Below, piece by piece: positions 5,077 through 23,912 of a stretch of DNA of 24,137 bases. Source of the DNA: a virus; the IMG/VR virus record IMGVR_UViG_3300024511_000004, positions 1-24,137 of that record. One strand, written 5' to 3'. A program made the translations under genes and the position numbers. The notes beneath the pieces were generated by a model. It did no database searches, had not been told where the DNA came from, and was given only the letters and a program-made list of their open reading frames with translations. How positions within the stretch are numbered: the first letter of the stretch is position 1; the number at the start of each line of letters is the position of its first letter.

Positions 5077-5096
5077 CCCAATTGGGGGCGCGCTAA
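5077..5096 (-). promoter_or_regulatory. Block-head motif, copy D (weak), upstream of the lysis cassette
   Basis: On the minus strand GCGCGCCCCCAATTGGG matches the core of copies B and C (CGCGCCCCCATTT); 13 of 18 aligned positions agree with copy C. It contains a 10-base palindrome, CCCAATTGGG (5077-5086). It lies in the 67-base gap between the tail-tip stop and the first lysis gene, about 31 bases before the GTG start, further away than in the other copies. Confidence 0.4.
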
Positions 5097-5112
5097 GAGG
5101 CACGGCCCTAAG

Positions 5113-8100
5113 CTAGCCCTGCTGGGGCTGCTGCAGTTCCGCGAGCTGCTGCTCAAGCACCTTGACCCGGGAGGACAGTTCCTGCACGGCCCTCACCAGT
5201 GGCGCGATGAATTCGCCATAACGCAAGCCGTAGACGTCCGCGTCTTCGTCATAGATGAGCCCGGCAAAGTCCTTGCCGCCCAGCACCTCCTCGACGTGCT
5301 GGGCGATGAACCCATAATGAGGCCGCTTCCCAGGGACGGGGACTGTCTCTTCTCGGAACCTGGGAGTCCCGTCCTCATTCTCGCCGTCCGGCACTTGCTG
5401 CTGGACGTTCTGCCCAACCTTCCATCGGTAGCTGACGGGCCGAAGCGCCTCGATAAAGGACAAGCCTAAATCGCTGTCCTTTATGTTGTCCTTTAGCCGC
5501 TCGTCAGAGGTGTTGATGACGTTGTTGTTCGAGAATACTTCTTTCCAAAACGCCCCATTTGCTCCGAGGGTGTAGGTGTTCGCCCCATTGGGGACGAAGT
5601 GCCCGCCGGCCTGGAGTAGCGCACGCGTTGCGCCTCCGGTGAAAAAGCGGAAAGCGTGGCTAGACTTGGTGCCAATCTCGCCGCCGCTGCTGCTGACATA
5701 GGTGCCGACCTTGACGGTGCCATCACTGTGCAGGAGGCCGTAGGCAGAGGAAGCCGTGCGAACTTCTAGCTTTTCTTCCGGGGCGCTGACGCCTATTCCG
5801 ACGTTCCCGTTGTTCTGAATGCGGACCTTCTCAGCCGTCAAGGCCTGAGTGTCATTCGAGGCACTGTTGTTGCCGACGTTGAAGGCCAGATATTCCGTGC
5901 CCCAAGCCCCACCATTGAATCCCGCCACGACATCAGCCGCGCGGCGCGGTTCGTTGTCGCCCGTTGCTTGAAATGTCGGGTACAGCGAAAGCGCGCTGCG
6001 CTCGCCTTGTGCGGCGCCAGGCGTTCGGAAAGATGCAACTCCTGCCGCAGTGCCAACGGAGGGGCCGCGAACGGCAAGCCGGAAGCTGCCTGTTGTTGCC
6101 GTGCCGATTCCGACGTTGCCGCTGCTGGTGGCAAACGTAGCGCCGGCCGCTGAGGACAGTGTGCCTGCTACGGCAATGTTAGTGTCCAGCTTCGCGGATG
6201 TGACGGAGCCGTCTGCAAGCTGTGACGTTCCGACAGCTGACGCAGCAATAAAAGCGCTTTTTTCGAGCTGGATTGTGTCGACCTCAAACGTCGAGGAGCC
6301 TGCCGAGCTAAACCGTCCGATGACGAGGCGCGCATAGACTGACTGGTTAGGCGAGACAAATTCCGCCGATGTCGTCAGCCACTGCAAATTAGTGTAACCC
6401 AGGGACAGGTCCGACGTGGACATAAGTCCTTGTGCCGCGTCGAGCCACTCAATGCGGGCGAGTTGGTCTGAGCCAATGTGCGAACGGCGCCGGACGGACA
6501 GCCTATAAACGGCGTTTGCTGAAATCTTCATCAGCGCCGCCACGACTCGCCCCTGCCCGGCGGCCGTGCCAAAGCTGAGAGCGTAGCCGCCGGACACGGC
6601 GCCAACCGAGCGCGCAACCCGCGTGACGTCCGTACCCCATGCACCATTATGCATGGACCACGCATCCGGCGGCGCGCTAGCCCCAAGCGTCCAGGCTTCA
6701 AATTCGCCGTTGACCGGATACTGCCCGTAGTCTACCGCCGGCTGAAGCATCCGCGGCGCCGCGTAGCCTGCCGTGAAAGCCACCTCCGCGGAGGGCTGGC
6801 CCTGCACTATGCGGCCCGCGTTCAACTGCCGAGGCACTGCGCGGGCGTAGTAGGTGCGGCCCGGGATGAGGTTTTGAACCTCGAGGGACTCAGCCTTGCC
6901 AAAGGCCGCCAGCGTGCCGGCCGCAGGCGCAAACCCGGGCGAGGCCGAGACGTGCAACTCGACGCCGTCGAACTTCGCTAGGCGGGACAGCTTTTCGTCA
7001 ATGCGGAATTTCGCGCCACCAGCAACGCCGGCAGCATCCACAACGCCGAGGGTTACTCCTCCCATTGAGTCCTGCAGGGAGTGCGCGGGCGCCACGCCTG
7101 GGCGGCTGTCCCACTGTAGCCACCTGTCCGAGCCGCCCGACGGCTTGCCGCGGCACGTCAGCGAGGTGCGGAACGTCTGCTCGCCGTCGCTCCCGAGCTG
7201 CGCCTCGTGGCTGTAGCCGACAACGGCAAGGACCTGGTCCGCGTCGAAGTGGACGTTGTTGGCCGAAAACCGATACAGGTCCCCCAGCTGTACCCAGGGA
7301 AAGCAAAAGGCCTCGACGCCGAGGGAGGCGTGCGGGGTCGAGAGGTCCGCCAGCGCCGCGGAGGCCAGCGCGTCCGCTTCCGCTGATGTGTCAATGGCGC
7401 TCGTCGCCTCCTCGGCAATCTCCATGAACCGCCGCCCGTAGGCGGCAATAGAAGCCGAGTCCACCGCCTGGCGATACTTGCGCCGAGGCGTCTTCCCGTC
7501 CGTTCCGAGGTCCGCTGAGTCTCCGTAGATGACACGAACCACGTTGCGGACGTCCTCAATGCCCATGTCGAGGGCGGACACGTCAACGTAACTCGATGGC
7601 GAAAACGTCCAGACTGGCACCGAGGCCGCACGGTCCGGCCGGTACAGCTGCAGCCGCCAGCTGCCGCCGCTGTCATAGCGCGGACGCAAGTCCCACCCGA
7701 TGAGCTGCGCCACCTTCCGCATTGCCTCTAGGACGGGCTCGCGCTCCTGCTTCCACGGGCTCATCAGGAACGAACTCGCGTCCGGCGCATACAGCGCCAC
7801 CGAGACGGGCGAGTCGTTGAGCATCTGCTGCAGCACGCCCTCCATCGTCACCGTGCCCGCTGCAGCGGTCGCCACTCCGCACGTCCAGGTGACGCCACCG
7901 TCCACCACCGTCGCGCCCACCGCCGTCGGCCAACTGGGCTGTGTGGTGCCGGTGATGCCAGTGGTGACGGAGGTGGCGCGGTACAGGTAGCCGTTCAGCG
8001 TAGTGGGGACGCAGAGGTCGCCCACGGCCTGTGTCTCACTCGGCGCCCAGATTAGGCACCCGCGCTGCACCGCGTAGGTGGTGGGTGTCAGCCCGTACAG

Positions 8101-8583
8101 CCGTTCGCGCTCATAGAACGAATCGGACAGGACGGCCACCGTGGCGTCCCGGCATTGCAGCGTCACCGACTCGCCGTCCGCTACGGAGATGCTGTCGATG
8201 CGGCCGACGAACAACTCCGTCCAGGTGGGGCTCGTCACCAGCTCGTCGACGGCTCCGATGTAGAACTCGACGCGCACGCGCCGGTACAGCGCCACCGGGG
8301 GCGAGGGGCTTGCGCTCGGGACGTAGCCGCGGGCCGTGCCGGATGACAGCATGAGCGGGGAAAGGCTGTGCTCGAACACCTGGCGCCGGAGCTGAATGCT
8401 CGCGGTCGGCCCCTGCCCGTCGACGTCCTCCTGAATGCTGACGCCCATGAGGAACCGCTGGTCCCCGAAGTAGGAATCCACATCCCGAAACACGCCGCCG
8501 GCATCCTCAAGCGAGACGCGAAACGCCGGAGCGTAGGCCCCGGACGCAACTCGGACGGACTCAGCAGCGGATAGCGGGCGCAT
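5113..8583 (-). CDS. Tail-tip/central fibre protein with C-terminal peptidase S74 chaperone
   Basis: This 1156-residue protein starts at ATG 8583, immediately after the previous stop, with GAGGAA upstream. The N-terminal ~480 residues look like a tail-hub domain (EFYIG..ELFVGRIDSISV, later VRNVVRVIYGDS and a DLYRFSANNV segment). A small fibre-type insert sits at 184-236. An FN3-like stretch (about 525-605) and a jelly-roll carbohydrate-binding-like stretch (about 630-780) follow, then fibre segments with GNVGIGT-type repeats. From about 1022 the S74 intramolecular chaperone begins (S1026-D1027 in TSDERLKDNI; YGFIAQHVEEVLG), ending in a coiled coil (about 1125-1150). S74 domains trimerise the fibre and then self-cleave, probably at this conserved Ser. 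It is likely the host-receptor protein at the tail tip. Confidence 0.85.
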   Translation of the reverse strand: MRPLSAAESVRVASGAYAPAFRVSLEDAGGVFRDVDSYFGDQRFLMGVSIQEDVDGQGPTASIQLRRQVFEHSLSPLMLSSGTARGYVPSASPSPPVALYRRVRVEFYIGAVDELVTSPTWTELFVGRIDSISVADGESVTLQCRDATVAVLSDSFYERERLYGLTPTTYAVQRGCLIWAPSETQAVGDLCVPTTLNGYLYRATSVTTGITGTTQPSWPTAVGATVVDGGVTWTCGVATAAAGTVTMEGVLQQMLNDSPVSVALYAPDASSFLMSPWKQEREPVLEAMRKVAQLIGWDLRPRYDSGGSWRLQLYRPDRAASVPVWTFSPSSYVDVSALDMGIEDVRNVVRVIYGDSADLGTDGKTPRRKYRQAVDSASIAAYGRRFMEIAEEATSAIDTSAEADALASAALADLSTPHASLGVEAFCFPWVQLGDLYRFSANNVHFDADQVLAVVGYSHEAQLGSDGEQTFRTSLTCRGKPSGGSDRWLQWDSRPGVAPAHSLQDSMGGVTLGVVDAAGVAGGAKFRIDEKLSRLAKFDGVELHVSASPGFAPAAGTLAAFGKAESLEVQNLIPGRTYYARAVPRQLNAGRIVQGQPSAEVAFTAGYAAPRMLQPAVDYGQYPVNGEFEAWTLGASAPPDAWSMHNGAWGTDVTRVARSVGAVSGGYALSFGTAAGQGRVVAALMKISANAVYRLSVRRRSHIGSDQLARIEWLDAAQGLMSTSDLSLGYTNLQWLTTSAEFVSPNQSVYARLVIGRFSSAGSSTFEVDTIQLEKSAFIAASAVGTSQLADGSVTSAKLDTNIAVAGTLSSAAGATFATSSGNVGIGTATTGSFRLAVRGPSVGTAAGVASFRTPGAAQGERSALSLYPTFQATGDNEPRRAADVVAGFNGGAWGTEYLAFNVGNNSASNDTQALTAEKVRIQNNGNVGIGVSAPEEKLEVRTASSAYGLLHSDGTVKVGTYVSSSGGEIGTKSSHAFRFFTGGATRALLQAGGHFVPNGANTYTLGANGAFWKEVFSNNNVINTSDERLKDNIKDSDLGLSFIEALRPVSYRWKVGQNVQQQVPDGENEDGTPRFREETVPVPGKRPHYGFIAQHVEEVLGGKDFAGLIYDEDADVYGLRYGEFIAPLVRAVQELSSRVKVLEQQLAELQQPQQG

Positions 8584-9363
8584 CTATTCCTCGCGGAGCG
8601 TCACGGAGAGGGAGCCCGCCATCGGCGTCCAAACGCCGCCAATCCACGCCGGGGCGTAGTCGAGCGAGGACACGTCCCCGCGGACAAAGACGGGCGCGCT
8701 TGCGGAGCTGCCAGGGAATAGGTCGCCGTAGGCTTCCAGCCTTGGCAGCGGCGGAAAGGGTCGGCCGGTCGCGTACAGCAGCGGCGGCCATGTAGTCGGC
8801 ACCACCGCTGGCAGCGCAACCAGGTCGTCCATTATTGCGTAAGCGCTGAACTGCAAATAACCAGCAGAGGCAGAATAAAGCGGCGTCCACGCTGAATCGT
8901 TGCGAGCCCCATTAACCCACGTTTGCCCTAGCGAAGTTATTACAAAATGCAGCCACTCGGCGCCCGTGTAGTACCAAAACAACACACTCCACGATGGCCC
9001 CAGCCTTGTGGCCGCTAGCGCCGCGCTGGAGCCCATTGACAACCGACCCACGCCATACTTCGGCGCGGGAGACGTCGAGCCCACGGCCGCCGTCAAACCC
9101 GAGAGCGGCAACCCCTTGGCGCTGTATAGGTTGGCGTCAAAACTCCAGACGTGCCCCTCGCCGCGAAACAGCGCCATCCATGCGAGCTGGTCTATTTGGG
9201 ACGCGACGGGAATGGTCAGTTCAAGCACCCGCTTCTGCCAGCGCCGATTAAGGACGGCCGTCCCGTCAAAGGCGCGCGTCCGTTCGCCCACCTCCTCGAC
9301 GCTGCGGGACAGAGAGTCAGCGCCGACCGGAACCGTGATGCCGTTGATGACGAGTGCCGGCAT
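8584..9363 (-). CDS. Distal-tail-like protein with LamG/lectin-like insert
   Basis: This 259-residue protein starts at ATG 9363, 3 bases after the tape-measure stop. Residues 1-80 resemble phage distal tail/tail-tip proteins (VINGITVPVGADSL, RWQKRVLELTIP). Residues about 84-186 look like a laminin-G or concanavalin-like lectin fold, with SWSVLFWYY, WLHFVIT, then YLQFSAYAIMDDLVALP, the usual LamG ending. The C-terminal part (about 200-259) returns to tail-protein sequence ending in GSLSVTLREE. The DNA of the lectin part (about 8820-8960) is visibly more A+T-rich than its flanks. It probably forms the ring under the tail tube and contributes carbohydrate binding. Confidence 0.7.
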   Translation of the reverse strand: MPALVINGITVPVGADSLSRSVEEVGERTRAFDGTAVLNRRWQKRVLELTIPVASQIDQLAWMALFRGEGHVWSFDANLYSAKGLPLSGLTAAVGSTSPAPKYGVGRLSMGSSAALAATRLGPSWSVLFWYYTGAEWLHFVITSLGQTWVNGARNDSAWTPLYSASAGYLQFSAYAIMDDLVALPAVVPTTWPPLLYATGRPFPPLPRLEAYGDLFPGSSASAPVFVRGDVSSLDYAPAWIGGVWTPMAGSLSVTLREE

Positions 9364-9366
9364 GGA

Positions 9367-11961
9367 TTAGCTCCCGAACGCCGGCAGACCACCGAGCGTC
9401 CCGCGCCCCTTCTGGAAGTTTCCGCGCCGCCGGATGGCTTCCATCTTTGACCAGATGGCCTCCGGGTCGTTGCTGACGATGGTGACGTATGTGTCACCGA
9501 CCAAGGCGCCGGCAGACGAGCCGAGGTCTGCCGGGAAACGGGCCGTCGTCCCTGTGTTCGTGGCGTTGTAGCGCGCCAGGTCCACCTTGAATCCGCTCGC
9601 CGCGTTCGTCATGCCAGACGCCAACTCATCAGCAGCCGCGGCGGCAGTGCCGAAGGACTGCGCCGTCGTCAAGGCAGAGTCCCAAGTCATTGAGACGGCC
9701 GCCGCCAGTTGGTCCTCGTAGGTTTGCGTCGATGCCTTGGCGCTTTCAAGGCCCGCGGCCCACTCTCCGAGAAACGCGAGCGGCCTTTGTCCGGCGATTT
9801 CAAATCCGGCAATCACGGAAAAGACGGATTGAATCGCAGAAACGATGCCGTTCCAGACATTCAGAACGCCGACGACGATGCCGAGAATGACGATTGCGAC
9901 ACCCTGCATTGTGGCAAACACGCCGCGCAACGCCTTCTCGAGAACGTACATCACCGGCAACAGGGCCAGCTCGAGCACCTTGGCAACCAGCTGGATGATG
10001 GGCGCGAGGGCGCCGAGCAGCGTCCCCAGCACCACGAACACCGGGAGAAGCGGTTGCAGCACCTGACTCACCAGCGGAACGAGCGGCGCAATAAGTCCGG
10101 TCACGGCCTGCACCACTGGCGCCAGCGCAGAAACCAGGTCCGCAACAGGCACCAGCAGTTGCCCGAGGGCGTCACCGAGTGCAGTAAGAATCCCATCGAG
10201 TGACTCGGTTAGGCGCTGAAAGCCGGCGCTGCCCTTCACCAGCTCAAAGATAACGGCGACCAATGCGCCGATTTCCCCGCCCGCTTGCGCCATAGGCCCA
10301 GTGGCCGCCTGGATGACGCCGCTGACCTTGCCCATTGCGCCGACAACCTGGTCCCGAAAACCGGAAAAGGCCGCCTCGCTTGCCTGCTGCAGTTCCTTGG
10401 CGGCAGCTTCTGCGTCCAAGTACGCCTGCCGAGTTGTGTTGAACCATTCGCGCACAACTGGATTGAGGTCCCGAACTTGCGCCAGCGAGTCCTCAAGGTC
10501 CTCAAAGTCCGCGAGCGTTTTAAGACGGCTTCCGTCGAACTTGTCGAGCCATTCCGGCATCTTGCTTGTGACGCCGGAGCGCCTGGCACCCTCGCCAAAC
10601 GTCGACGCGCCAGCAAGAAACAACTGCGACTCCAGTGGGGCGCGGTCCGCGCGCAGCCGGTCAACGTGCTGGGCCGCCTTGCGCTGGTCCTCGTTCCACT
10701 TCTCCCAGGCAGATAGGTACTTCTCCGCCTCGCCGCCCTTGGCCCCCAGCTTGTGCAGGAAGTCCCGCACGTCCTCGATGCCCTTGATGCTGGAGAGCGC
10801 CTCGCCGTTGAACTTCTCGAGCGCGGCCGGCACGTTAAGCGCGCCCGCCATCTCCATCGAGTCGCGCAGGTTGCCGCCGCGGCCACGCAGGGCGCGGAAA
10901 GAGGCCTCCATCTTGTCCGCGCGGAGGCGGCCGAAATCCTCCGTGGCCTTGTCTGTGAGGTCTTTAAACTTGCCAACCTTGGTGGCGTTGGCCGGTAGCA
11001 GCTTGAGGAATCCCTCCAGCTTCGCGCGCATGTCGTCGGTCATTTTGCCGACGCCGCTTTTCATCATCGCCAGGACTTCCAGCGTGTCGTCCTTTAGTGC
11101 ATCCAGGCCCGAGTCCGTGGGCAGCTGCGCCACCCAGTCGGCCACCGTCTTTCCGAACTCCTCCCACCCGTCGACGTCCACCAGGCCGTCAATGTGCAGA
11201 GCCCGAGCAAGGCCCGCGGCGCCGGACACCATCAGCCGGATGACGCCGGCCCAGTCCTCGGCCACCTTGATGAGATATTTCTGGAACGCCTTCCAGATGT
11301 ATTCACCGACGCCGCCGAGCTTGTTTCCAAGCCAGGTTGCCTTTTCGCTCACCCAGCCCCATACGGCCGCGAACTTCTCTTGGATGCCTCCGAGGTTCTG
11401 GTCCCAGGCTTCGCGCACTAGCCCCGCAATGCCGATGAGCAGCGCGACCGCCACCAAAACGGGAAGCGTGGACGCCGACAGCAAGCCCATTGAAGACGCC
11501 ACAAAGCGGACGGCCGTAGCGGCCAGCTTGAAGGCCGGCTCCAGCTTCACCGCCGCCATGCCTACCGCGGACACGCCGAGCGCAATCTGGATGAACTGCG
11601 TAGCCATGGCGCGTTGTTCCGGCGTCAGCTGCCGAAACAGCGTCACCACCCGGCCCACCGTGTCCGCCATCTGCTGCAGCACCGGAAGGGCCAGGCGGGC
11701 CACCTCGATGGCCACGGCCGTCGAGGCGTTCTTCAAGTCCTCGACCTGCTTTTTGACCTGGGCGTCCTTGCTTGCCGCAACAGCCACGGCCGCGCCGACA
11801 GCGGCCGCGACCATGTTGGACATGTCGCTGGCGTCCTTGCCGAGCCCCTTTAGGTTGCGGCCGAACGACTCAATTTTCCTGGCCGCGCCGTTGAGCTGCT
11901 TCTGGAGCTTCTGCGTGTTGGCCGTCAGGGAGACGTAGAGGTCGCCTACTTTGAGTGCCAT
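9367..11961 (-). CDS. Tail tape measure protein
   Basis: This 864-residue protein starts at ATG 11961, 3 bases after the gpT-frame stop. The N-terminus is typical of tape measures (LYVSLTANTQKLQKQLNGAARKIESF), a coiled coil that sets tail length. Hydrophobic segments appear near residues 50-62 and 165-185, with long Ala/Leu/Val stretches from about 590 to 730 that may insert in the host membrane during DNA entry. The middle (about 300-560) is charged and helical. Size and position between the G/GT pair and the distal tail protein are diagnostic. At roughly 0.15 nm per residue the tail would be about 130 nm, an inference from the general rule. Confidence 0.9.
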   Translation of the reverse strand: MALKVGDLYVSLTANTQKLQKQLNGAARKIESFGRNLKGLGKDASDMSNMVAAAVGAAVAVAASKDAQVKKQVEDLKNASTAVAIEVARLALPVLQQMADTVGRVVTLFRQLTPEQRAMATQFIQIALGVSAVGMAAVKLEPAFKLAATAVRFVASSMGLLSASTLPVLVAVALLIGIAGLVREAWDQNLGGIQEKFAAVWGWVSEKATWLGNKLGGVGEYIWKAFQKYLIKVAEDWAGVIRLMVSGAAGLARALHIDGLVDVDGWEEFGKTVADWVAQLPTDSGLDALKDDTLEVLAMMKSGVGKMTDDMRAKLEGFLKLLPANATKVGKFKDLTDKATEDFGRLRADKMEASFRALRGRGGNLRDSMEMAGALNVPAALEKFNGEALSSIKGIEDVRDFLHKLGAKGGEAEKYLSAWEKWNEDQRKAAQHVDRLRADRAPLESQLFLAGASTFGEGARRSGVTSKMPEWLDKFDGSRLKTLADFEDLEDSLAQVRDLNPVVREWFNTTRQAYLDAEAAAKELQQASEAAFSGFRDQVVGAMGKVSGVIQAATGPMAQAGGEIGALVAVIFELVKGSAGFQRLTESLDGILTALGDALGQLLVPVADLVSALAPVVQAVTGLIAPLVPLVSQVLQPLLPVFVVLGTLLGALAPIIQLVAKVLELALLPVMYVLEKALRGVFATMQGVAIVILGIVVGVLNVWNGIVSAIQSVFSVIAGFEIAGQRPLAFLGEWAAGLESAKASTQTYEDQLAAAVSMTWDSALTTAQSFGTAAAAADELASGMTNAASGFKVDLARYNATNTGTTARFPADLGSSAGALVGDTYVTIVSNDPEAIWSKMEAIRRRGNFQKGRGTLGGLPAFGS

Positions 11962-11964
11962 TGC

Positions 11965-13170: not shown

Positions 13171-13172
13171 CG

Positions 13173-13595: not shown

Positions 13596-13611
13596 GACGT
13601 TGTGTCTCCTG

Positions 13612-14055
13612 TTACTGCTGCTCAAGGCGCCGCAGCGCCCTCATCATTGCGGCGCCGACATTCTTTTCGAGCGCACCGCCGCGCCCGTCTGCTGCGCGCT
13701 CGAGAAACTTGGGAGGCGTGCCCGTCATCCGAAACCGGTCTTTTACGCCTGGGAAGCCATAGAAACCCTCATGCGCCTGCGCCGCATAGGGCGCCTCGTA
13801 TCCACAGGTGACGGTCATGCTCTCGCCGCCTTTGGATGCCTCGCCCGGGGCAATGAAACCAGAGCCAGCAAGGTCGCCCGTCTCAACCGGGATGCCCGAG
13901 CGGGACGCCACCATGATGTGAGCCGCCTCATTCCGCAACACTGGCTCACAGTCTTTGAGGACCTCCTTGGACGCGCGCTGCAGGCGTCGGCGCACGGCTT
14001 CCATGCCCTCAATCTGAATGAACGCCCTGGCGGCGCCAATGTTGAGCCGTGCCAT
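13612..14055 (-). CDS. HK97 gp10-like neck/tail completion protein
   Basis: The product has 147 residues. The reading frame is open to 14130, but ATG 14055 is chosen: the family begins here (ARLNIGAARAFIQIEGMEAVRRRL) and the extra sequence would span a terminator. Motifs of the HK97 gp10-like family are VETGDLAGSGF (58-67), a YAAQAHEGFYGF segment (90-101) and PPKFLERAA (114-122). These proteins connect the neck to the tail tube. It is the first gene after the intrinsic terminator at 14095-14128 and carries copy C of the block-head motif directly upstream, so it may head its own transcript. Confidence 0.8.
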   Translation of the reverse strand: MARLNIGAARAFIQIEGMEAVRRRLQRASKEVLKDCEPVLRNEAAHIMVASRSGIPVETGDLAGSGFIAPGEASKGGESMTVTCGYEAPYAAQAHEGFYGFPGVKDRFRMTGTPPKFLERAADGRGGALEKNVGAAMMRALRRLEQQ

Positions 14056-14073
14056 TCCCCCACCTAAATGGGG
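14056..14073 (-). promoter_or_regulatory. Hairpin covering the ribosome site of the gp10-like gene
   Basis: On the minus strand CCCCCA (14074-14069), TTTAGG and TGGGGG (14062-14057) form a 6-bp stem with a 6-base loop, ending one base before ATG 14055. The only Shine-Dalgarno-like bases (AGG, GGGGG) lie in the loop or stem, so the fold would limit initiation. Its 5' arm is the core of block-head motif copy C. The pairing is seen; control of translation is inferred. Confidence 0.4.
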
Positions 14074-14082
14074 GCGCGTTTT
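14065..14082 (-). promoter_or_regulatory. Block-head motif, copy C, upstream of the tail block
   Basis: Minus strand AAAACGCGCCCCCATTTA, ending 9 bases before ATG 14055 of the gp10-like gene. It is identical to copy B at 17 of 18 positions, and lies between an intrinsic terminator and the first tail gene. Confidence 0.55.
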
Positions 14083-14094
14083 CGGTCTGGCGCG

Positions 14095-14128
14095 AAACAC
14101 AAGGGGCGCCCCGTTGCCAGGGCGCCCC
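14095..14128 (-). terminator. Intrinsic terminator after the neck fibre gene
   Basis: On the minus strand GGGGCGCCC (14128-14120), an 8-base loop and GGGCGCCCC (14111-14103) form a perfect 9-bp GC stem, followed by TTGTGTTT (14102-14095). It lies 22 bases past the stop of the fibre gene (14151). Together with motif copy C just downstream it separates the neck and tail blocks. Confidence 0.7.
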
Positions 14129-14150
14129 AAGTCACGGCGTCAGCCGAAGG

Positions 14151-16151: not shown

Positions 16152-16174
16152 TGCGTCACCCGATGGGTAAGAGG

Positions 16175-16197: not shown

Positions 16198-16213
16198 TTG
16201 CCGCTTTGTCGTC

Positions 16214-16633: not shown

Positions 16634-16856
16634 TGTGTCCCCTTAGTGTCCGGTCGCGTAGGTGCCGAAACGACTCGAAGTACCGGAAAAACTCCGAGCG
16701 CGTGAACTCCAGCTCGAGCGCGTCCGCCTCCTCTGGCGCTAGCGCGAACTCAAAGGACGCGCGGTTGCGCGTCTTGACGTGTACGGCCGACAGCAAGACG
16801 CCGCTGTGGACGAGGTACGCCGCAAAGCCGATTTTCTCTGTGCGGAAACTAACCAA
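16617..16856 (-). CDS. Small DUF5659-like phage protein
   Basis: This 79-residue protein begins at a TTG start (16856) inside the stop region of the previous gene (overlap 8 bases), with no strong Shine-Dalgarno, so it is probably translated by coupling. The sequence (IGFAAYLVHSGVLLSAV, then ASFEFALAPEEADALELEF) resembles the short beta-hairpin proteins called DUF5659 that are scattered through phage structural regions. Function unknown. The match is from memory of the pattern and was not searched. Confidence 0.6.
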   Translation of the reverse strand: MVSFRTEKIGFAAYLVHSGVLLSAVHVKTRNRASFEFALAPEEADALELEFTRSEFFRYFESFRHLRDRTLRGHNVKQG

Positions 16857-17715
16857 GGCGCACCAGGTGGGGCGACGGCGTCAACTCCAGCAGCGCAGGC
16901 CCCAGAGCCACGCCCACCACCTGGACAAAGGCAACGCCGGACGGCGAGGCCGCCGCCGTTGGCGCCGTTGTCGTGGGGCGTCCGTTAAGCCCGACAAACA
17001 CAAGACGCCCAGGCACCAGCGGAGGCAGGCCCAAGGAAGACAGGTTGCAGATGCCGGACCGCTGCACCATTGCCACCGTGTCCGCCGGCTTGCTTACCAG
17101 CAGCCCCAGCACCGGCACGCCGGCCGAGCTGGACGGGTCTGCCGTCGTCACTACCGGAGTCCCGCTTGAGTCCGTAGCGCCAACCGTCACCAGCGCCCCG
17201 GGGACGTCGGTGTCCAGGCACAGCGCCTCAAAGGCGCTCGAGGCCGCGCTACCGCCGGCAATGCCGCCGCCGACGACAGGCGGCGCGCTGGAGGCGTCCG
17301 AGGAATACTGCGCCTCGACGTTGAGGCTCCACAGCGGACGGTCCGAGCCGTCTGTCGGTAGCCGGAAGGGCGCGGACTCGCGCACCTTCACGAAGACATA
17401 CGGCGACAGGGCGGGCAGGGTGAGGGCCGAGTGGACGCCAAACGCCAGGGACTGGCCCGTCGCGTGGTCCTCGCGCGGACCGCGCACCAGCACCTGACAG
17501 GTGGCGCGCATGTAGACGCTGCGCGAGCCGATGTAGGGCTCTGCGTTGCTGCCGCCAGTGGAGAGGATGGCCACGGCCACGTCAGGCACCGTGAAGTCGT
17601 CATCCTCTGGCAACGCACCGAGGAACAGGTTTCGCGGCACGGTCGGCGGGCGCGCGAGGCCCAAGTCTGCAGCCTCCAGCACCAGCGCCAGGTCCGCGGC
17701 CACGTCTCGCACCAT
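16849..17715 (-). CDS. Tail-terminator/minor capsid-like protein with extra C-terminal beta module
   Basis: This 288-residue protein starts at ATG 17715, 2 bases after the previous stop. Residues 1-140 resemble the phage minor-capsid/tail-terminator family: a helical start, LFLGALPEDDDFTVPDVAVAILSTGG, MRATCQVLVRGPREDHATG, then PLWSLNVEAQYSS. Such proteins cap the tail tube at the neck. After a Gly/Ser/Pro linker (about 140-162) comes a second part. Its end (199-288: VPVLGLLVSKPADTVAMVQ, LPPLVPGRLVFVGLNGRP, VVGVALGPALLEL) has the same layout as the C-terminus of the fibre at 14151-16151. The fusion makes it about twice the usual terminator length, and the extra module may project from the neck. 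Confidence 0.7.
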   Translation of the reverse strand: MVRDVAADLALVLEAADLGLARPPTVPRNLFLGALPEDDDFTVPDVAVAILSTGGSNAEPYIGSRSVYMRATCQVLVRGPREDHATGQSLAFGVHSALTLPALSPYVFVKVRESAPFRLPTDGSDRPLWSLNVEAQYSSDASSAPPVVGGGIAGGSAASSAFEALCLDTDVPGALVTVGATDSSGTPVVTTADPSSSAGVPVLGLLVSKPADTVAMVQRSGICNLSSLGLPPLVPGRLVFVGLNGRPTTTAPTAAASPSGVAFVQVVGVALGPALLELTPSPHLVRLG

Positions 17716-17717
17716 GG

Positions 17718-18041
17718 TTAGAACCAGACCTTCCGGTATTGCGTCAGCCCCGCGCCGTCCACGTAGAAGCCGATAGAGAGCGGGCGCCGAGCGCGGTTAA
17801 AGTCTCCCGCGGGCTCGCCGGGAAACCAGACGCGGGAGTTCAACGTGATGGCCGCGTCGGTGTAGACGACATGAGTGGCCTGCGCTTCCTGCCCCTTGGC
17901 GTCACGGATGAGCTTCTGCAGCGGCTGAATGCGCGCCCGAGCCGTCGCGGCCGGCCCCATCACCGGCTTTCCGTAGGCGTCCCGGCCGGTGAGCTCGGCC
18001 ACCGTGATGGTCTGCCGGAACAGGTGCGCGGGCGTTCCCAT
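17718..18041 (-). CDS. Head closure protein (SPP1 gp16-like head-tail joining)
   Basis: This 107-residue protein starts at ATG 18041, sharing one base with the previous stop (TGATG). It has the short all-beta pattern of head-tail joining proteins: FRQTITVAELTGRDAYGKPVMG, ARARIQPLQKLIRDAKGQEAQATHVVYTD, ending in the GAGLTQYRKVWF strand. It would close the portal channel after packaging. Its place after the adaptor gene is standard. Confidence 0.8.
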   Translation of the reverse strand: MGTPAHLFRQTITVAELTGRDAYGKPVMGPAATARARIQPLQKLIRDAKGQEAQATHVVYTDAAITLNSRVWFPGEPAGDFNRARRPLSIGFYVDGAGLTQYRKVWF

Positions 18042-18691
18042 CAGGACACCCGCAAAGAACGGTAAGGGGCCAGCACGGACTCCACCTCGGGCAGCACCAG
18101 CGAGGGCAGGGCGGCGCGGTATGAGACGGACCAGTCTCCGAGGCCCTCACTTGCCACGTTGGGGTCGATGGCGCGGCGCCGCAGCATGCCGGCGGCGACC
18201 AGCACCGCCGCCTCTTGCACGTCCTCGGGCAGCGTCACCGTAAGCGCCGCGTTGAGCGCCTTCTGCCCTGGCGTCACATAGCCTGCCGTATAGGTGACGA
18301 CGATGCCATCCGAGCGCCCGACATTGTCCGCGGGGCCGTAGGTGATGCGGCCCATGTAAGCGCCCGTGTCCAACCACACGCCGCCGCGCCGAAGCACCAG
18401 GCCGGCGTCCGCCATTGCGCCCAACGACTCAAACCCAGCAGCGTCCACCGCCGTCCCGCCCTCCGTCACGCTGGCGATGCTGATGATGGGGGCGCGGTCC
18501 AACAGCAACAGCGGCCGCCCGTAGCCGGCCGGGTACTCCGTCACCGTGGCGCGCTCAAACGGCCGCCCGCAATAGCGCGCAATAGCCCGGGACGCCGCCG
18601 TCACGGCGCGCTGCACCTGGGCATCATCCGCCACGCCGAGGTCTCCCGCGACGGTGGAGGCCAGACAGAGGTCAATCGCGCTCGCGGGCAT
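18041..18691 (-). CDS. Head-tail adaptor (HK97 gp6/SPP1 gp15-like)
   Basis: This 216-residue protein starts at ATG 18691, with GGAGGT 6-7 bases upstream. An early helix QVQRAVTAASRAIARYCGRPFE and a LLLDRAPIISIASVTEGG segment followed by VVTYTAGY fit the helical connector proteins that bind under the portal (HK97 gp6/SPP1 gp15 type). The C-terminus has PEDVQEAAVLVAAGMLRRR and GDWSVSYRAALPSLVLPEVESVLAPYRSL, common in this family. It is the first gene after the capsid terminator, whose T-tract lies only 18 bases before its start codon. Confidence 0.8.
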   Translation of the reverse strand: MPASAIDLCLASTVAGDLGVADDAQVQRAVTAASRAIARYCGRPFERATVTEYPAGYGRPLLLLDRAPIISIASVTEGGTAVDAAGFESLGAMADAGLVLRRGGVWLDTGAYMGRITYGPADNVGRSDGIVVTYTAGYVTPGQKALNAALTVTLPEDVQEAAVLVAAGMLRRRAIDPNVASEGLGDWSVSYRAALPSLVLPEVESVLAPYRSLRVS

Positions 18692-18708
18692 GCACTACCT
18701 CCAACAAC

Positions 18709-18748
18709 AAAAACGCTGCCGGCGCCGGTCGACCGGACACCGGCAGCG
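18709..18748 (-). terminator. Strong intrinsic terminator after the major capsid gene
   Basis: On the minus strand CGCTGCCGG (18748-18740) pairs with CCGGCAGCG (18722-18714) in a 9-bp stem. The loop contains a self-complementary CCGGTCGACCGG. TTTTTGTTGTT (from 18713) follows. A second hairpin, CTCCGT with ACGGAG (18750-18755 and 18763-18768), lies just before it. It should uncouple high capsid expression from the connector genes. Confidence 0.8.
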
Positions 18749-18769
18749 ACTCCGTGGGGGAGACGGAGA

Positions 18770-19843
18770 TTAGGAGTCGGAGATGACGGAAAAGGCCTTG
18801 TCGTGCCGCAGCTTGAAGTCCACGCGGACGATGGCGCGGATGACAGTCTCGTCATACGCGGCCCGAGCGTCCGGGTGCAGGCTGACGTTCACGTCCCGAT
18901 CCACGCCGTACAGGAAGTGCCGGAAGTCGCCGAAGACCAGCTTAGTGGTCGGGATGCGCGTCGACACCACAAAGGGCATGCCGCGCAGCGTCTTCGCGCC
19001 GAGCATCTCATCACGGAACACCCACCCGCCCGCATCACGCAGGCCCATCAGCTTCGAGGCCTTGTCCGGGGACATCAGCCACGACGGCGAGGTGATGGAC
19101 ACGTCAGACGCCAGCACCAGCTCCACAGCCTGGTCGATGTCGTCGATGTAGTTGGCAACGCTGGTGCCCGAACGCACAAACACGTTCGAGGCGTTGACCT
19201 GGGCCAGCAGGCCGGTCGGCTGGTTATTGAGGCCAGTGCCGTTGATGGCCGCAGCGTCCACGCCGTGGGCCATGGCCGTCCGCGCCTCCTCGCCGATGAA
19301 TGCGTCACCGACGGCGGGGTTACGGATGAGGTCGTTCGAAAGGTTGATGAGCGCCATGCCCTTCTTCGCGCGGAGGATGACCTTGCCGAAGACGGGCTTC
19401 GTCTCGGCAGTCGTGTCGCCCTCGCCAATCCACGTCAGCGAAGCGCCGGTCAACTGCTTGGGAATCTCGAGCTGGTAACTGAACGGCACCATCTGCACGC
19501 CGAGCTTGTCCAGAATGGACACGGGGCGCAGGAACTCGATGACGTCGGAGGCGTACTGGATGGGCACCAGGGCGCCGGCCGAGTCGAGCACCGACTCCTG
19601 GACCGCCTTGGCCATGTCCGCGCCGCCGAAGCGGGCCGCGTTCTTCGTCAGCTCGTCCCGGCCACCGCCGCGGTTGTTGCCAACGGCCTTGAGGAACGCG
19701 CCGAAGGTGGCCGCCGACTTGAAGGCCGAGAACTTCGCCGGCTCCTCCGTCTTCGTCACCAGCGCCTGCCGCTCGCCGCGGGACTTCTCCACAATCTCAG
19801 CCGCGACCATCTTCGCCACATCCTGCATCTGCTCGGGGTTCAT
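18770..19843 (-). CDS. Major capsid protein, HK97 fold
   Basis: The product has 357 residues from ATG 19843, with AAGGAG 5 bases upstream. A start at 20023 is rejected because it would lie in the protease. The N-terminal helical ~75 residues (NPEQMQDVAKMVAAEIVEK) may act as a scaffold delta domain. The HK97-type core then begins: SAGALVPIQYASDVIEFLRPVSIL, EIPKQLTGASLTWIGEGDTTAETKPVF, RAKKGMALINLSNDLIRNPAV, and near the end LVFGDFRHFLYGVDRDVNVSL. It overlaps the protease by 4 bases (ATGA). Subunits form the icosahedral shell. The terminator that follows fits a need for high expression. Confidence 0.9.
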   Translation of the reverse strand: MNPEQMQDVAKMVAAEIVEKSRGERQALVTKTEEPAKFSAFKSAATFGAFLKAVGNNRGGGRDELTKNAARFGGADMAKAVQESVLDSAGALVPIQYASDVIEFLRPVSILDKLGVQMVPFSYQLEIPKQLTGASLTWIGEGDTTAETKPVFGKVILRAKKGMALINLSNDLIRNPAVGDAFIGEEARTAMAHGVDAAAINGTGLNNQPTGLLAQVNASNVFVRSGTSVANYIDDIDQAVELVLASDVSITSPSWLMSPDKASKLMGLRDAGGWVFRDEMLGAKTLRGMPFVVSTRIPTTKLVFGDFRHFLYGVDRDVNVSLHPDARAAYDETVIRAIVRVDFKLRHDKAFSVISDS

Positions 19844-20709
19844 GCCTGCTCCTTCAAGTGGGACAGCGTGAGGGCGGCCAGCTCTCGCGCCAGCTCCTCT
19901 AGGTTGGGGGTCTGCTCTGCAGCGGGCTTCGATGCTTCCGGCGCCGCCGCCTCGGCCGCCGAAGTCTCCTGGGCAGGTTGCTCGGAAGGCTCGGCCTCCC
20001 ACGCAGTCACCTCGCCGCCGCACTCAGGGCATGCAGGCACGGTCGTCTGCCACTCGCACGCACCGCACTTGATGACGGCGCCGCCCGCCTTTGCCGCCTC
20101 TACCGGCGCCACATCCAATGGAAGACCCTCAGACGGAACGTCTGCCGCAGCCTCGCTCGCATCCTTCGCCGCAAGCGCAGCCAGCACCCGCGCCGTCACA
20201 AGGTCGGCCATGCGCTCGGCGGCCGCGTCAGCCTCGAGCCCCTTCACGCGGAGGGCGCGCTGATTCCCAGGCACCACGACGACAGAGATTTCAAGCAATT
20301 CCTGGGAGAGCGAGTCATACCCGCCCAGTTCGTTCTGCTTGAAATCCTGCATCACGTAGCGGACGGACACAGCATTGAGGAACCCGCCCGCCACCTTCGC
20401 TTCAACCTTGCGCGCGAACTCGTCGTCCTGGTCGAACTGGATGTCGACCATGAGCGCGTCCCCGTCCACGTAGGCGAGGCCCTTGCCGATAGGCAGGATG
20501 GGAGCGCCCGACTCGAGGCCCGCACCCTCATCGTGCTGATACAGCACGACGGGGTTTGCGTTGTAGGCGTCCAGCTTCCAGCCGGCCACGCTCACGCGGT
20601 CCTGATAGCGGTCCACCTCGCCGTCGTTCGCACGGAACGTATACAGCGTGCCGGACTTGGAGTCGGCCGCTGCCTTAGTGGCAAGGTTGAACGTCTTTAG
20701 GCGCTGCAT
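19840..20709 (-). CDS. Prohead protease with zinc ribbon and scaffold-like C-terminus
   Basis: This 289-residue protein starts at ATG 20709, with AGG sequences upstream in the block-head motif. Residues 10-155 match the HK97-family (U35) prohead serine protease: H59 in LYQHD, S115 in LNAVSVRY, and E140 in ELLEISVVVVPGN. Residues 160-210 are helical and Ala-rich. Residues 215-230 hold C215, C218, C227 and C230 (CGAC and CPEC), a zinc-ribbon pattern. The rest is acidic and Pro/Ala-rich, ending in a LEELARELAALTLSHL helix. No separate scaffold gene is present, so the C-terminal half may act as the scaffold. The zinc ribbon is unusual for this family. Confidence 0.85.
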   Translation of the reverse strand: MQRLKTFNLATKAAADSKSGTLYTFRANDGEVDRYQDRVSVAGWKLDAYNANPVVLYQHDEGAGLESGAPILPIGKGLAYVDGDALMVDIQFDQDDEFARKVEAKVAGGFLNAVSVRYVMQDFKQNELGGYDSLSQELLEISVVVVPGNQRALRVKGLEADAAAERMADLVTARVLAALAAKDASEAAADVPSEGLPLDVAPVEAAKAGGAVIKCGACEWQTTVPACPECGGEVTAWEAEPSEQPAQETSAAEAAAPEASKPAAEQTPNLEELARELAALTLSHLKEQA

Positions 20710-20717
20710 CCTGCGCC

Positions 20718-22070
20718 CTAAATGGGGGCACGTTTTGGTTGTGGCTCACGCTGCCACGGCTCGTCGCTGGTAGCCGTTGGCTCCTGCGCTGGCGTCTCGC
20801 CTGCCGGCTGCGTCTCTACCTGACCAGGCAGCGGCAACGGGTATCCCTGGCGGTCCGGGTCCGGCCGCAGCCCTGCCAGCTCGCGCCACTCGTCATAACT
20901 GAAGGCCTCGGGCATGCGACTCATCACCTTGAGCTGATGCTCGCGGTCGGCCGGGACGGGCGAGTCGTAGTCCAGCACCACGTCGGGGCCGAACTGCGGG
21001 GCCAGCCGCGCCTGGAGCTCCGTCCGCAGGAACTCGAGCCGCGGCAGCACGGCCTGTTCTGCGAGCAGTTCGCGCGCCGCAAACGCCGTAGCGCGGTTGC
21101 TGTTGGAGATGTCGCCAACAATCTCGGGCGGCACGCGGTACGTCATCCGCACGAACTCCATCAGGAAGCGCCGCAGCTCCACGAACTGCATGTCCTTAAG
21201 GGACGTGTCCAGCCGCGCGAACGTCGTCTTCCCGCCCGTGACGAGCAGCTTGCCGGCGCGGTCCGGCCCCTTGTGTTCGCGCTCGAGGCTTTCCTTGAAT
21301 GCGCGCACGGGCGCAGCGTTGGCATCGTTCAGCCCGTCGATGGACACGACGGCCGCCGGGAGAGTGCTGTTGAAGAAATAGTTCTTCGTATACCGAGCCG
21401 CGTACTCGTCCGCGTCCAGTTCGTCACCGAGCGCAAAGGCCGGCCCGATTCCACGCCCCAGAGGGTCGTCAGGGTCCAGCGTCCGCAGCGCCACCACGTC
21501 AGCAGCCGGAATCCTCCGCGCCTTGCCGCCGATGTTGACCTGATAGAAGCGCTCCTCTTTCGGTGCCGAGAGGTCCGGCAGCGCAGTCACGGCGTTAGGC
21601 GGCACCGGCCACGCTCCGACGATGACGCCGGCCACGCGGTCGAGCACCCAATAGGCCTCGCCCACCAGGTCCAGATGCACCTGGGAGAGCTTCAACACGG
21701 CGCGGCCAGACAGGTGGTCGCTAGGGTCCGTCAGCAGCGCGAGCAGCGGATGGTCTGGCACCTCGACCATCTCGCCGGACTGCGTCAGAGCGCGGATGCG
21801 CGCAGCGCGGGCAGTCTTGCTCGAAGTCCGCAGCGTGAAGTCCCGGCGGCCGTCAGCATTGACGCGGCGGTACACGCGCCACTGTGCGTTCGCCACGTTG
21901 TCGGCCACCACGTCAACAACCGTTCGCAGCCAGGGCATCTCCTTGTAGGCGCGCAGCAACTCCGACGCCCCGCGGCGCGGCGGCGCACTCACCCAGCGCG
22001 ACACCTCGAGGCCCGTGCCTGGCCGCTGCTTCCCACCGAATGCATCCTTGACGTTGTCCCACCAGCTCAT
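20718..22070 (-). CDS. Portal protein, HK97 family
   Basis: This 450-residue protein starts at ATG 22070, 9 bases after the large terminase stop. Typical features are an N-terminal WVSAPPRRGASELLRAYKEMPWLRTVVDVVADNVA segment, LSGRAVLKLSQVHLDLVGEAYWVLDR, GIGPAFALGDELDADEYAARYTKNYFFNS, and the MEFVRMTYRVPPEIVGDISNSNRAT stretch near residues 318-342 common to this family. The C-terminal ~45 residues are Pro/Gln/Glu-rich and probably disordered. Twelve copies would form the channel through which DNA enters the head. The stop lies inside block-head motif copy B. Confidence 0.92.
   Translation of the reverse strand: MSWWDNVKDAFGGKQRPGTGLEVSRWVSAPPRRGASELLRAYKEMPWLRTVVDVVADNVANAQWRVYRRVNADGRRDFTLRTSSKTARAARIRALTQSGEMVEVPDHPLLALLTDPSDHLSGRAVLKLSQVHLDLVGEAYWVLDRVAGVIVGAWPVPPNAVTALPDLSAPKEERFYQVNIGGKARRIPAADVVALRTLDPDDPLGRGIGPAFALGDELDADEYAARYTKNYFFNSTLPAAVVSIDGLNDANAAPVRAFKESLEREHKGPDRAGKLLVTGGKTTFARLDTSLKDMQFVELRRFLMEFVRMTYRVPPEIVGDISNSNRATAFAARELLAEQAVLPRLEFLRTELQARLAPQFGPDVVLDYDSPVPADREHQLKVMSRMPEAFSYDEWRELAGLRPDPDRQGYPLPLPGQVETQPAGETPAQEPTATSDEPWQREPQPKRAPI
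20719..20736 (-). promoter_or_regulatory. Block-head motif, copy B, upstream of protease and capsid
   Basis: Minus strand AAAACGTGCCCCCATTTA, ending 9 bases before ATG 20709. It differs from copy C by one base. It also encodes the last portal residues (KRAPI) and its stop codon, so it has been kept within coding sequence. Confidence 0.55.
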
Positions 22071-22079
22071 GGCCTCTCC

Positions 22080-23444
22080 CTAGAAAACAGCGAAGAACTG
22101 GTCAGCGAACACCAGCTCGTGCACGCCCCAGTTCATGGCGTCCACGCGGTCGTCGCGCCTGTCAGGGCGCCCCGTGAAAGTCGTTAGTTGCTTCTCCAGC
22201 GTCGGATGCTCACCGACGAACTCGATGCGTCCCGTCTCGGCGAGCGCGGACACAGGCTCGGCCCGCTTGCTTTTCTGCTCTTTGGCGCGGACGGGCTTGA
22301 TGTAGACGCTGACGCCCATCTCCTGGGCGACCGTCTCCACCAGCGTTGTCACCATCTCGCCGCCGGTATTCATTTCGACGACCAGCGCGTCACAGTTCCA
22401 TGCCAGGTATTCGTGGACGGCGGCCGTGGCCCACTCCCGCGGCGTGGCCTTGCAGCTGGAGTCCTTGAGGATGGACACCCGCTTGAGGCCGTCCTTACCA
22501 CGGCGCACGCCCTGGACGATGATACCCGTCTCATCCGCACCGAGGTCCGACGTCGGCGCGGGGTCAACGGAGACTATGCGGCGGTCCAGCCCCTTGGCGT
22601 ACTCGAGCGGCTCCGCGTCGACGCGGCCCCAGCGCGCAGAGCCGAACAGACTCCCGGGCGTGTCCATCAGCAGCTGGCCGAGGACCTCTTGCTGTCCCCA
22701 GCGCGTGCCCGCCATTGCCTGCATCGTGGCCACCGTGGACGGCGCCAGGTTGGCCGAGTTGGCGAGGCTGCTTCCCGTGATGACGACAACGCCAGGCCGC
22801 GCCACCAGCTCGGCCAGCTTTGGCACCGGCCGTGGCGTGCCGGTGAGCAGCACCTGGGGCGGAAACTCAGCCGTCCCAATTCTGTTGAACAGCGGGACCT
22901 GGTCGAGCGCCGCCATGTCATAGCGCCAGATTTGGGGCTCGTCGCCCCAGCAGAAATAGGTGTTAGTCCCGCGCAGGCGGTCCGGCTTGTCCGCGCTGTA
23001 GGCCATAGCGAACACGCCGTTAGGCCAAGTCAGTCGCCGCTTGCTGGGCTCGTAGACGGGGCGGAAGTCGGGCGGGCTTAGGGCGAGGATGCCGCTCGGC
23101 CCCTTAATCATCACGTCCCGAACGTCGGCCGCTGTCGGTCCGATGAGCGCCCCGGCGCCTTTGGCCTCGCGCGCCTTCTGGATAACCCACCGCGCGCCGC
23201 ACCAGGTTTTCCCGAAGCCACGGCCCGCCATGACTACGCAGTAGTTCCACGCCCCGGCCGGCGGCATCTGCTGGCGCCGCGCCCAGAAGTCGAGGTCGTA
23301 GGTCAGCGCCGTGACCTCGTCGTCCGTCAGCCCCTCGAACAGCCGGCGCACCTTGGCCGGCGTCCCGGCCGTGCGGCACATGTAGGAGGCGACGGACTCC
23401 TCTGGTCCAAGCTGGTCGATGATGGCGCGCCACTCACTCCGCAT
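22080..23444 (-). CDS. terL: Terminase large subunit
   Basis: This 454-residue packaging motor starts at ATG 23444, overlapping the small subunit by 11 bases. The ATPase has Walker A AGRGFGKT (73-80) and a Walker B-like YFCWGDE (D168, E169), with the coupling motif region LLTGTP (199-204). The nuclease half carries acidic residues D294 in IVSVDPAP, E357 in ALVVEMNTGG and D432/D435 in DDRVDAMNWG. All expected motifs are intact, so it should be active. It cuts concatemers and drives DNA into the prohead through the portal encoded next. Confidence 0.93.
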   Translation of the reverse strand: MRSEWRAIIDQLGPEESVASYMCRTAGTPAKVRRLFEGLTDDEVTALTYDLDFWARRQQMPPAGAWNYCVVMAGRGFGKTWCGARWVIQKAREAKGAGALIGPTAADVRDVMIKGPSGILALSPPDFRPVYEPSKRRLTWPNGVFAMAYSADKPDRLRGTNTYFCWGDEPQIWRYDMAALDQVPLFNRIGTAEFPPQVLLTGTPRPVPKLAELVARPGVVVITGSSLANSANLAPSTVATMQAMAGTRWGQQEVLGQLLMDTPGSLFGSARWGRVDAEPLEYAKGLDRRIVSVDPAPTSDLGADETGIIVQGVRRGKDGLKRVSILKDSSCKATPREWATAAVHEYLAWNCDALVVEMNTGGEMVTTLVETVAQEMGVSVYIKPVRAKEQKSKRAEPVSALAETGRIEFVGEHPTLEKQLTTFTGRPDRRDDRVDAMNWGVHELVFADQFFAVF

Positions 23445-23886
23445 CGGCCTCGGCCTCCGCGTCAGCCTTGGGCGCCGGCTGCGCTAGACGCTCGAGGCGC
23501 GAGAGCAGCAGCTCGCGCAACTCCTCCACGTTGGCCTGGCCGGGAGTGCCGGACGAATCGGACACGTTGTCTTGGCGCGAGTACCGCTGGGGGAACCGGC
23601 GCGACAGGACCCACATGCGAATTTTTGGCGCGGCCTCCGCTTGCTCGAGCAGCCGCGACAGCTGCGCCGCCTCGAACTGCGATTCGGCTTCGTTGACGCC
23701 CTCGAAGAAATCGCGCGCCAACCCGCGAGGCTCGCGCGCTCCGGTCTGGTACCACTTGCCGAAAGTGGACTCGCCCACCCGCACCAGGCCGGCGGCCACC
23801 TTCCGATGCTGACCGGCGCGGAGATGCGCGCAGACCTGGGCAATCAGCTCCGCCGTCAGCTTCGTTTGTTTGCGGCCTCGAGCCAT
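23434..23886 (-). CDS. terS: Terminase small subunit
   Basis: The product has 150 residues from ATG 23886. An upstream ATG at 24003 would add 39 residues of Pro/Arg-rich sequence across the block-head motif and is rejected. A basic start (ARGRKQTKLTAELIAQVC) leads to a helix-turn-helix at about 28-49 (RKVAAGLVRVGESTFGKWYQTG) for recognising the packaging site. Next comes a helical oligomerisation region (NEAESQFEAAQLSRLLEQAE) and a repeat-like acidic end (KADAEAEADAE) that may bind the large subunit. Ribosome binding is weak (CTGGCTGG). It is the first gene of the late region. Confidence 0.88.
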   Translation of the reverse strand: MARGRKQTKLTAELIAQVCAHLRAGQHRKVAAGLVRVGESTFGKWYQTGAREPRGLARDFFEGVNEAESQFEAAQLSRLLEQAEAAPKIRMWVLSRRFPQRYSRQDNVSDSSGTPGQANVEELRELLLSRLERLAQPAPKADAEAEADAE

Positions 23887-23893
23887 CCAGCCA

Positions 23894-23912
23894 GAAATGG
23901 GGGCAGCTTTTT
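23894..23912 (-). promoter_or_regulatory. Block-head motif, copy A, upstream of the terminase genes
   Basis: Minus strand AAAAAGCTGCCCCCATTTC, ending 7 bases before ATG 23886. It matches copies B and C at 15 of 18 positions and keeps the CCCCCATTT core and the A-run. Confidence 0.5.

Follow-up and report, generated by a model that had tools for sequence, protein, structure and literature searches.

The question raised by this locus is what a short oriented motif does at the heads of several gene blocks of a phage. The window, by which we mean the whole stretch of DNA analysed, corresponds to an IMG/VR virus record (24,137 bases, 67% G+C) whose virion genes lie on the minus strand; the genome of the window phage is incomplete, and gene starts were set by inspection. 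An earlier note on this DNA had claimed a repeated motif on the coding strand at the heads of the terminase, protease/capsid, tail and lysis blocks. Searching the whole window on both strands, we found the exact motif AAAACGCGCCCCCATTTAGG at 14082-14063 (minus strand, 0 mismatches), AAAACGTGCCCCCATTTAGG at 20736-20717 (minus strand, one mismatch), AAAAGCTGCCCCCATTTCTG at 23911-23892 (minus strand, five mismatches) and a weak fourth copy, TTAGCGCGCCCCCAATTGGG, at 5096-5077 (minus strand, five mismatches), which confirms the oriented repeat. The best match beyond these four, on either strand of the entire window, has six mismatches, and the claimed absence of copies from other genes is borne out, with no intragenic copy scoring equally.

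These matches exceed chance. The core GCCCCCATTT has three exact matches, all on the coding strand and only at the three strong sites (0.06 expected), and 0 of 100 shuffles contained three; the 20-mer with at most three mismatches occurs twice in the window against 0 expected. The note's naming of the four blocks agrees with PHROG matches to a small terminase, a protease, a neck protein and an endolysin. The features of the window are as follows.

23892..23923, minus strand: predicted sigma promoter 1, terminase/portal operon; GCACCAGCCCCAAAAAGCTGCCCCCATTTCTG, 5 nt upstream of the small-terminase ATG (23886)
20717..20748, minus strand: predicted sigma promoter 2, protease/capsid operon; TGAGCCACAACCAAAACGTGCCCCCATTTAGG, overlaps the portal stop codon, ATG (20709) 7 nt on
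14063..14094, minus strand: predicted sigma promoter 3, tail operon; CGCGCCAGACCGAAAACGCGCCCCCATTTAGG, ATG (14055) 7 nt on
5077..5108, minus strand: predicted weak or degenerate promoter 4, lysis operon; GGGCCGTGCCTCTTAGCGCGCCCCCAATTGGG
14103..14128, minus strand: intrinsic-terminator-like hairpin at the end of the capsid/fibre operon; 11-bp stem, TTGTGTTT tail, stops 8 nt before promoter 3
23434..23886, minus strand: small terminase subunit, first gene of the promoter-1 operon; PHROG 4102, E 4.4e-15
22080..23444, minus strand: putative large terminase subunit, from sequence and synteny
20718..22070, minus strand: portal protein, which served as the query for relatives
19840..20709, minus strand: head maturation protease, first gene of the promoter-2 operon; PHROG 80, E 4.6e-13
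13612..14055, minus strand: HK97-gp10-like or neck protein, first gene of the promoter-3 operon; PHROG 5, E 1.2e-8 (its PF04883 score is slightly under the cut-off)
4260..4775, minus strand: endolysin, lysis block downstream of promoter 4; PHROG 6523, E 3.5e-19
24137..24137: end of the window, with the sigma gene lying off-window

The gap between motif and ATG had been given as 7-9 bases in three cases; it is 7 nt for the copies at 14082-14063 and 20736-20717, as claimed, and 5 nt for that at 23911-23892. The 20.7-kb copy does cover the portal stop (...P K R A P I stop). For the fourth copy, the closest plausible start is a GTG at 5045, 31 nt away, and its position weight matrix score in the window is low. 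Its counterpart in the related 33-kb contig G001 is GGCCACGGCGGAGTCAGTGCCCCCAATTGGG, near to the lysis sites of Myxococcus prophages (GGGCCACGGCTGGAAAGTGTCCCCATTGAAG), and the lysis sites of clade C start with GGGCCACGGC; on this comparison, the fourth copy is probably a degenerate lysis promoter.

The motif is conserved at the same junctions in related phages; the earlier note had named a lack of such conservation as a refutation. The motif pattern gave nine matches in IMG/VR, including near-identical copies of the window phage and its relatives L007 and G001, both of which keep the motif at 20 of 20 positions at the tail junction in surrounding DNA that is only 76-79% identical. Three of the nine (L004, L008 and L010) share the short core only, are otherwise dissimilar to the window and were taken as chance matches. 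The portal protein search added virus records and named hosts, whose labels are, with one exception, Myxococcus, Corallococcus or Pyxidicoccus. Judged by these sequences, the relatives are Myxococcaceae prophages, and the relatives point to the probable host of the window phage.

The spelling of the site varies from clade to clade. Among these relatives, G007 and G008 carry CCAAAACCGCACACATTTAGG at the protease and tail junctions and a close variant at the terminase, and the site at the promoter 1 junction is also present in G001, G007, G008 and Myxococcus prophages. Each Myxococcus prophage has CCACTCGCGGAAAGYGTCCCCAT eight or nine times, with copies on both strands. Each of the roughly nine sites faces an operon, and together they head all lytic operons, including that of the sigma gene described below. 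Clade C has sites in front of the primase, SSB, RuvC-like, nuclease, terminase, protease, tail, lysis and sigma operons (gene names outside the window were read from translations); the sigma operon lacks a site in clades A and B. We compared the site at three junctions in 13 genomes from five clades: different junctions of one genome agree at 88% of the 15-bp core and the same junction in different clades at 66%, with flanks at the chance level of 27-29%. Such a joint change of many unlinked sites is the mark of a trans-acting factor.

The same comparison bears on the earlier suggestion that the motif is a boundary at which short shared sequences allow the exchange of modules. The sites do lie at module borders, as recombination would predict; however, concerted change within a genome combined with difference between phages is the reverse of what a shared crossover sequence needs, and some sites form tandem arrays that are not borders, so we give recombination a negligible probability.

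The anatomy of the site is that of a two-part element. The conserved region extends about 12 bp upstream of the motif originally seen (GCCA), giving a full element of about 32 bp, common to all versions: TGRGCCA, about 17 nt, and then CATTTA, CATAAA, CATTGA or CATCTA. A logo of 58 sites shows the conserved TG..CCA block followed by GAAAGYGTCCCCAT and agrees with the sequence preceding the window copies (TGAGCCACAACC AAAACG...). The two elements stand at -35/-10 spacing, oriented with the gene, and the spacing is constant across clades. The downstream half of the spacer is also conserved (RAAA..YG); a conserved spacer block is unusual in a sigma-70-type promoter. Sites resembling the housekeeping sigma-70 consensus (TTGACA/TATAAT) are no commoner than chance in the late region: two occur within 4200-24137, with 1.4 expected, and neither lies at the motif.

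Position relative to the start codon raised the possibility, also contained in the earlier note, of a start-associated signal that acts in the mRNA and binds a protein or the ribosome. Depending on the clade, 61-89% of sites are followed by an ATG or GTG 0-9 nt after the element, compared with 7-13% of random positions, and each site has a single orientation with respect to its gene. Against this, a start codon within 9 nt is lacking at 11-39% of the sites of each clade, the SSB gene regularly starts about 50 nt past its site, and some sites are tandem triplets 80 bp apart and distant from any start; the element is therefore not a start-codon signal. Its conserved part contains no Shine-Dalgarno core, RNA folding across sites and versions gave no common hairpin (z -1.1, -0.6 and +0.2), and a signal in the mRNA would leave unexplained both the sigma link and the TGRGCCA block at -35 distance. 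A hairpin hiding the ribosome site, seen by eye at the 14-kb copy, proved inconsistent across sites and versions and no better than shuffles. A translation signal thus fits worse than a promoter and is very unlikely. Most sites are 3-9 nt upstream of a start codon, which a promoter alone would not need.

A described case of such a signal is the start-associated sequence (SAS) found in cluster K mycobacteriophages. This 13-bp GGGATAGGAGCCC includes the Shine-Dalgarno core AGGAG, is located 3-7 bp from starts and occurs only in the non-structural half of the genome (PMC3203893). The analogy drawn in the earlier note holds for position, both being short oriented repeats near start codons and absent from the host. 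It fails elsewhere: our element is about 32 bp long, has neither GGGATAGGAGCCC nor AGGAG in its conserved part, stands at the head of structural operons (terminase, protease, tail) and includes the 11-39% of sites that lack a nearby start.

Many dispersed, phage-specific copies oriented with transcription are also what would be expected of an operator or stoperator, at which a phage repressor would bind and shut all operons in the lysogen. Cluster A stoperators act in transcription regulation through a phage repressor, and our sites resemble them in being dispersed, oriented and phage-specific. Unlike stoperators, the sites are at operon heads, and the conserved linked regulator is a sigma factor whose clades the versions follow; moreover, the element has no dyad symmetry, and its length and two-part layout suit a sigma footprint. 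Repression as the primary function is accordingly very unlikely, and no repressor was identified in the window; a repressor overlapping the promoters may exist in addition to sigma. Stoperators of cluster A mycobacteriophages are named in PMC3203893.

The gene that would supply this factor lies just outside the window. Contig L014 is 100% identical to window positions 10721-24137 (13,417 bases) and extends past the window end; the sigma-like gene of this phage occupies L014 positions 2423-3088 (plus strand), ends about 525 bp beyond the window end, and is followed by a small Cys-rich gene (L014 from 3072). A sigma-like gene stands shortly upstream of the small terminase in 19 of the 19 records that reach that far, two positions before it in L014, G008 and G025, where gene order was read. 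In clade C, small ORFs between the sigma-operon promoter and sigma are poorly conserved and may not be genes.

Several searches identify the product. PHROG sigma matches have E-values of 8e-7 to 1.7e-12, PF04542 (Sigma70_r2) scores above its cut-off in four relatives (3e-6 to 2.7e-10), and NCBIfam sigma70 matches reach 8.6e-17 and 1.7e-10. The clade C sigma exceeds the TIGR02937 cut-off with 61.2 bits; the window-phage sigma falls slightly under both cut-offs (40.8 bits against 42.9 for TIGR02937, 22.8 against 24 for PF04542), and its assignment draws also on PHROG, fold, synteny and relatives. A PDB profile search matched RpoS (E 3e-15) over two stretches, including region 4; PF04545 in the G008 sigma scores 19.6 bits, under its cut-off of 24.1, and the region 4 helices are present in the structure model. 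The AlphaFold2 model of sigma (pLDDT 79, pTM 0.46) has a disordered linker, and the top 50 Foldseek matches to the sigma model are all sigma factors or sigma-RNAP entries (probability 1.00, E from 5.8e-5). By homology to regions 2 and 4 and by the modelled sigma fold, the phage protein belongs to the sigma-70 family. A T7-like single-subunit RNA polymerase promoter, suggested by the 20-bp shape, was set aside when the sigma gene was found.

We observed a close association between sigma and motif versions. Among 96 Myxococcaceae genomes, clustered C-version motifs occur in eight, each of which has a top-class sigma in the same loci; two more combine a top-class sigma with a variant motif (D), and 86 carry neither (Fisher 3e-10, with counts that are not independent, as members of one sigma clade share ancestry and the genomes are related). 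The sigma search also returned distant homologues (E 1e-34 to 1e-46), and the prediction that their loci would have motif versions of their own was met in nearly all: a repeat search beside start codons, not seeded with the motif, gave TGAGCCATTCGCGGAAGTCGCACGCATTTACC, TGAGCCACTCGCGGAATCCGCACCCATTTAC and, in two loci, CACAACATCTA. On the sigma tree, versions A, D and H form single groups and C requires two changes. A split between E and F, one or two bases apart, was abandoned, since the two intermix on the tree in one group with H. On this comparison of sequences, sigma and its promoters have diverged together into several versions.

The genome survey also weighs on the possibility that the sites are host sigma promoters or are bound by another phage activator, such as the conserved Cys-rich protein beside sigma. 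The Cys-rich gene is indeed linked in the three clades examined. However, the C version is missing from 86 of the 96 genomes (mostly about 10 Mb each) and, where present, is clustered in prophages or integrative elements, which makes a host regulon unlikely; the phage sigma suffices to explain the sites, and we consider a host sigma or a second activator highly improbable.

Overall, the motif is very probably the cognate promoter of the phage-encoded sigma-70-family factor. The late promoter proposed in the earlier note is upheld by computed properties: the sites and their conservation at the same junctions, orientation, sigma-type geometry, the homology and fold of the phage sigma, its linkage and co-occurrence, and the concerted change of specificity. 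The tandem arrays in sigma-less elements, described below, and the scarcity of housekeeping-type promoters were also counted in favour of a promoter, as was the terminator-like hairpin directly before promoter 3; this hairpin is the strongest such site within 4200-24137 (-29.4 kcal/mol, z -4.1), and L007 keeps the same hairpin (z -5.5). A point against a promoter is the small number of sites in the window phage, three strong and one weak.

In the proposed mechanism, sigma would bind the host RNA polymerase and bring it to the promoters that match, about four in this phage, so that the terminase/portal, protease/capsid, tail and lysis operons would be switched on together; from the sequence, we infer this recognition and the order of expression. 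If transcription is assumed to start 7 nt past the -10 element, the predicted starts fall 0-5 nt before most start codons, and the mRNAs would have little or no leader. In Myxococcus prophages, this system would stand before all lytic operons, including the replication genes and sigma's own operon; with the sigma operon itself under a sigma site, the switch would be self-amplifying.

There is precedent for phage sigma factors in control of core viral genes: T4 gp55 (late) and SPO1 gp28 (middle) and gp34 (late) (PMC9429907). As in those phages, a sigma-family protein is predicted here to redirect the host RNA polymerase to phage promoters. SPO1 and T4 are lytic phages of Bacillus and E. coli, whereas ours are temperate Myxococcaceae prophages, which differ further in the TGRGCCA...CATTTA promoter with its conserved spacer, in having sites at every lytic operon in some clades, and in the several diverged versions. 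With the host factors RpoS, SigA, FliA and ECF, the phage protein shares region 2 and region 4 homology; unlike them, it is phage-borne and short (220-280 aa), with two domains and a disordered linker.

Solitary C-version matches in G094 (three copies) and G093 sit in elements that lack sigma. These carry predicted promoters of versions H, H, EF and C in tandem within about 250 bp, spaced by about 80 bp, usually two H, one EF and one C; one G094 copy (L169) has a variant EF site. After the array come a small wHTH-like gene, primase-type genes (Prim-Pol and DUF927 in L173, DUF5906 in L170), and excisionase-like and integrase genes; these integrases share 65-73% identity with the prophage integrases. 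The stretches of these elements that were analysed showed neither a virion gene nor sigma, and G094 has no sigma match at E 1e-6. Similar arrays occur on two short contigs of G022. The elements may be satellites or prophage remnants; the retention of a multi-version array in several copies favours a function.

The satellite P4 uses the late activators of its helper P2. The elements would resemble P4 if their promoters answer a helper's late regulator, and differ from it in carrying tandem promoters of three sigma versions. We regard it as evenly balanced whether myxobacterial temperate phages share a fast-diverging sigma/promoter pair as a lytic master switch, with sigma-less elements exploiting tandem arrays to be inducible by any of three helper classes. 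The open-access literature searched contained nothing on sigma-driven regulation in myxobacterial prophages, and the word sigma is absent from a review of M. xanthus phages. The phage collection searched held no close cultured relative (best portal match 31.5% identical), so that regulation in this group appears undescribed, as do the sigma/promoter lineage and the sigma-less elements with tandem promoters of three versions.

Taken together, the motif becomes a testable regulon, in which the phage sigma and all of its promoters can be read from the genome. The matched sigma and promoter versions form a natural series in which to study simultaneous changes of promoter specificity at many sites and, if the sigma-less elements respond to a helper sigma, tandem promoters would let a satellite sense several helpers by simple means.

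The gene immediately 3' of that for the phage-encoded sigma factor codes for a small Cys-rich protein in three clades:

from 3072 (+), contig L014, identical to part of the window: small Cys-rich protein gene, directly after sigma
81–392 (−), relative G008: the same
37590–37898 (+), relative G025: the same

In L014 this gene overlaps the sigma stop codon. The protein, with the pattern CAACGxPIxxGExIxYxLAxGPRHLxC, gave no family match and is a candidate sigma partner or anti-sigma factor.

The primase operon is headed by two to three tandem sigma promoters spaced by approximately 80 bp, which face one to two promoters of the sigma operon in the following genomes (positions within concatenated loci):

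20064–20225, G099b: tandem promoters upstream of the primase operon
16174–16334, G096: the same
13255–13417, G080: the same
16850–16998, G022_977: the same

Within the window, a RecT-like gene and, downstream of it, one for a PD-(D/E)XK nuclease (DUF2800) occupy 787–2807 (+); they are convergent with the virion genes, and no sigma promoter was found before this pair. The gene of a 666-aa repeat-rich protein (ATARAAADTTL type; 14151–16151, −) is flanked by capsid and tail genes, and its product matches tail-fibre and head-decoration profiles.

Extra genes break the common layout of the G025 prophage:

28033–29364, 32791–33546, 41446–42843 and 44916–45185: extra genes

Several are oppositely oriented, and some lie just 5' of promoter sites, as in the portal/protease interval; they may have been inserted where operons end, as cargo or for defence.

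A Myxococcus-type prophage is also present in L052 (BNCN01000010.1), a record titled 'Comamonas sp. KCTC 72670' whose genome measures 9 Mb and was recovered inside the Myxococcaceae family search as G024; this label is probably wrong.

Integrative elements without sigma occur in L168–L170 (G094), L173 (G093), G022:C448 and G022:C497. Ser/Thr-kinase-like gene pairs were located as follows:

57096–60332, G025: adjoining the prophage
5195–8496, L170: adjoining the sigma-less element

Since both adjoin such a pair, common cargo or a common integration region is suggested. In the sigma-less elements, promoters of different sigma versions are arrayed in tandem, and downstream of them come a small wHTH-like gene, genes of the primase type and those for an excisionase and an integrase; these elements could possibly be satellites sensing several helper phages.
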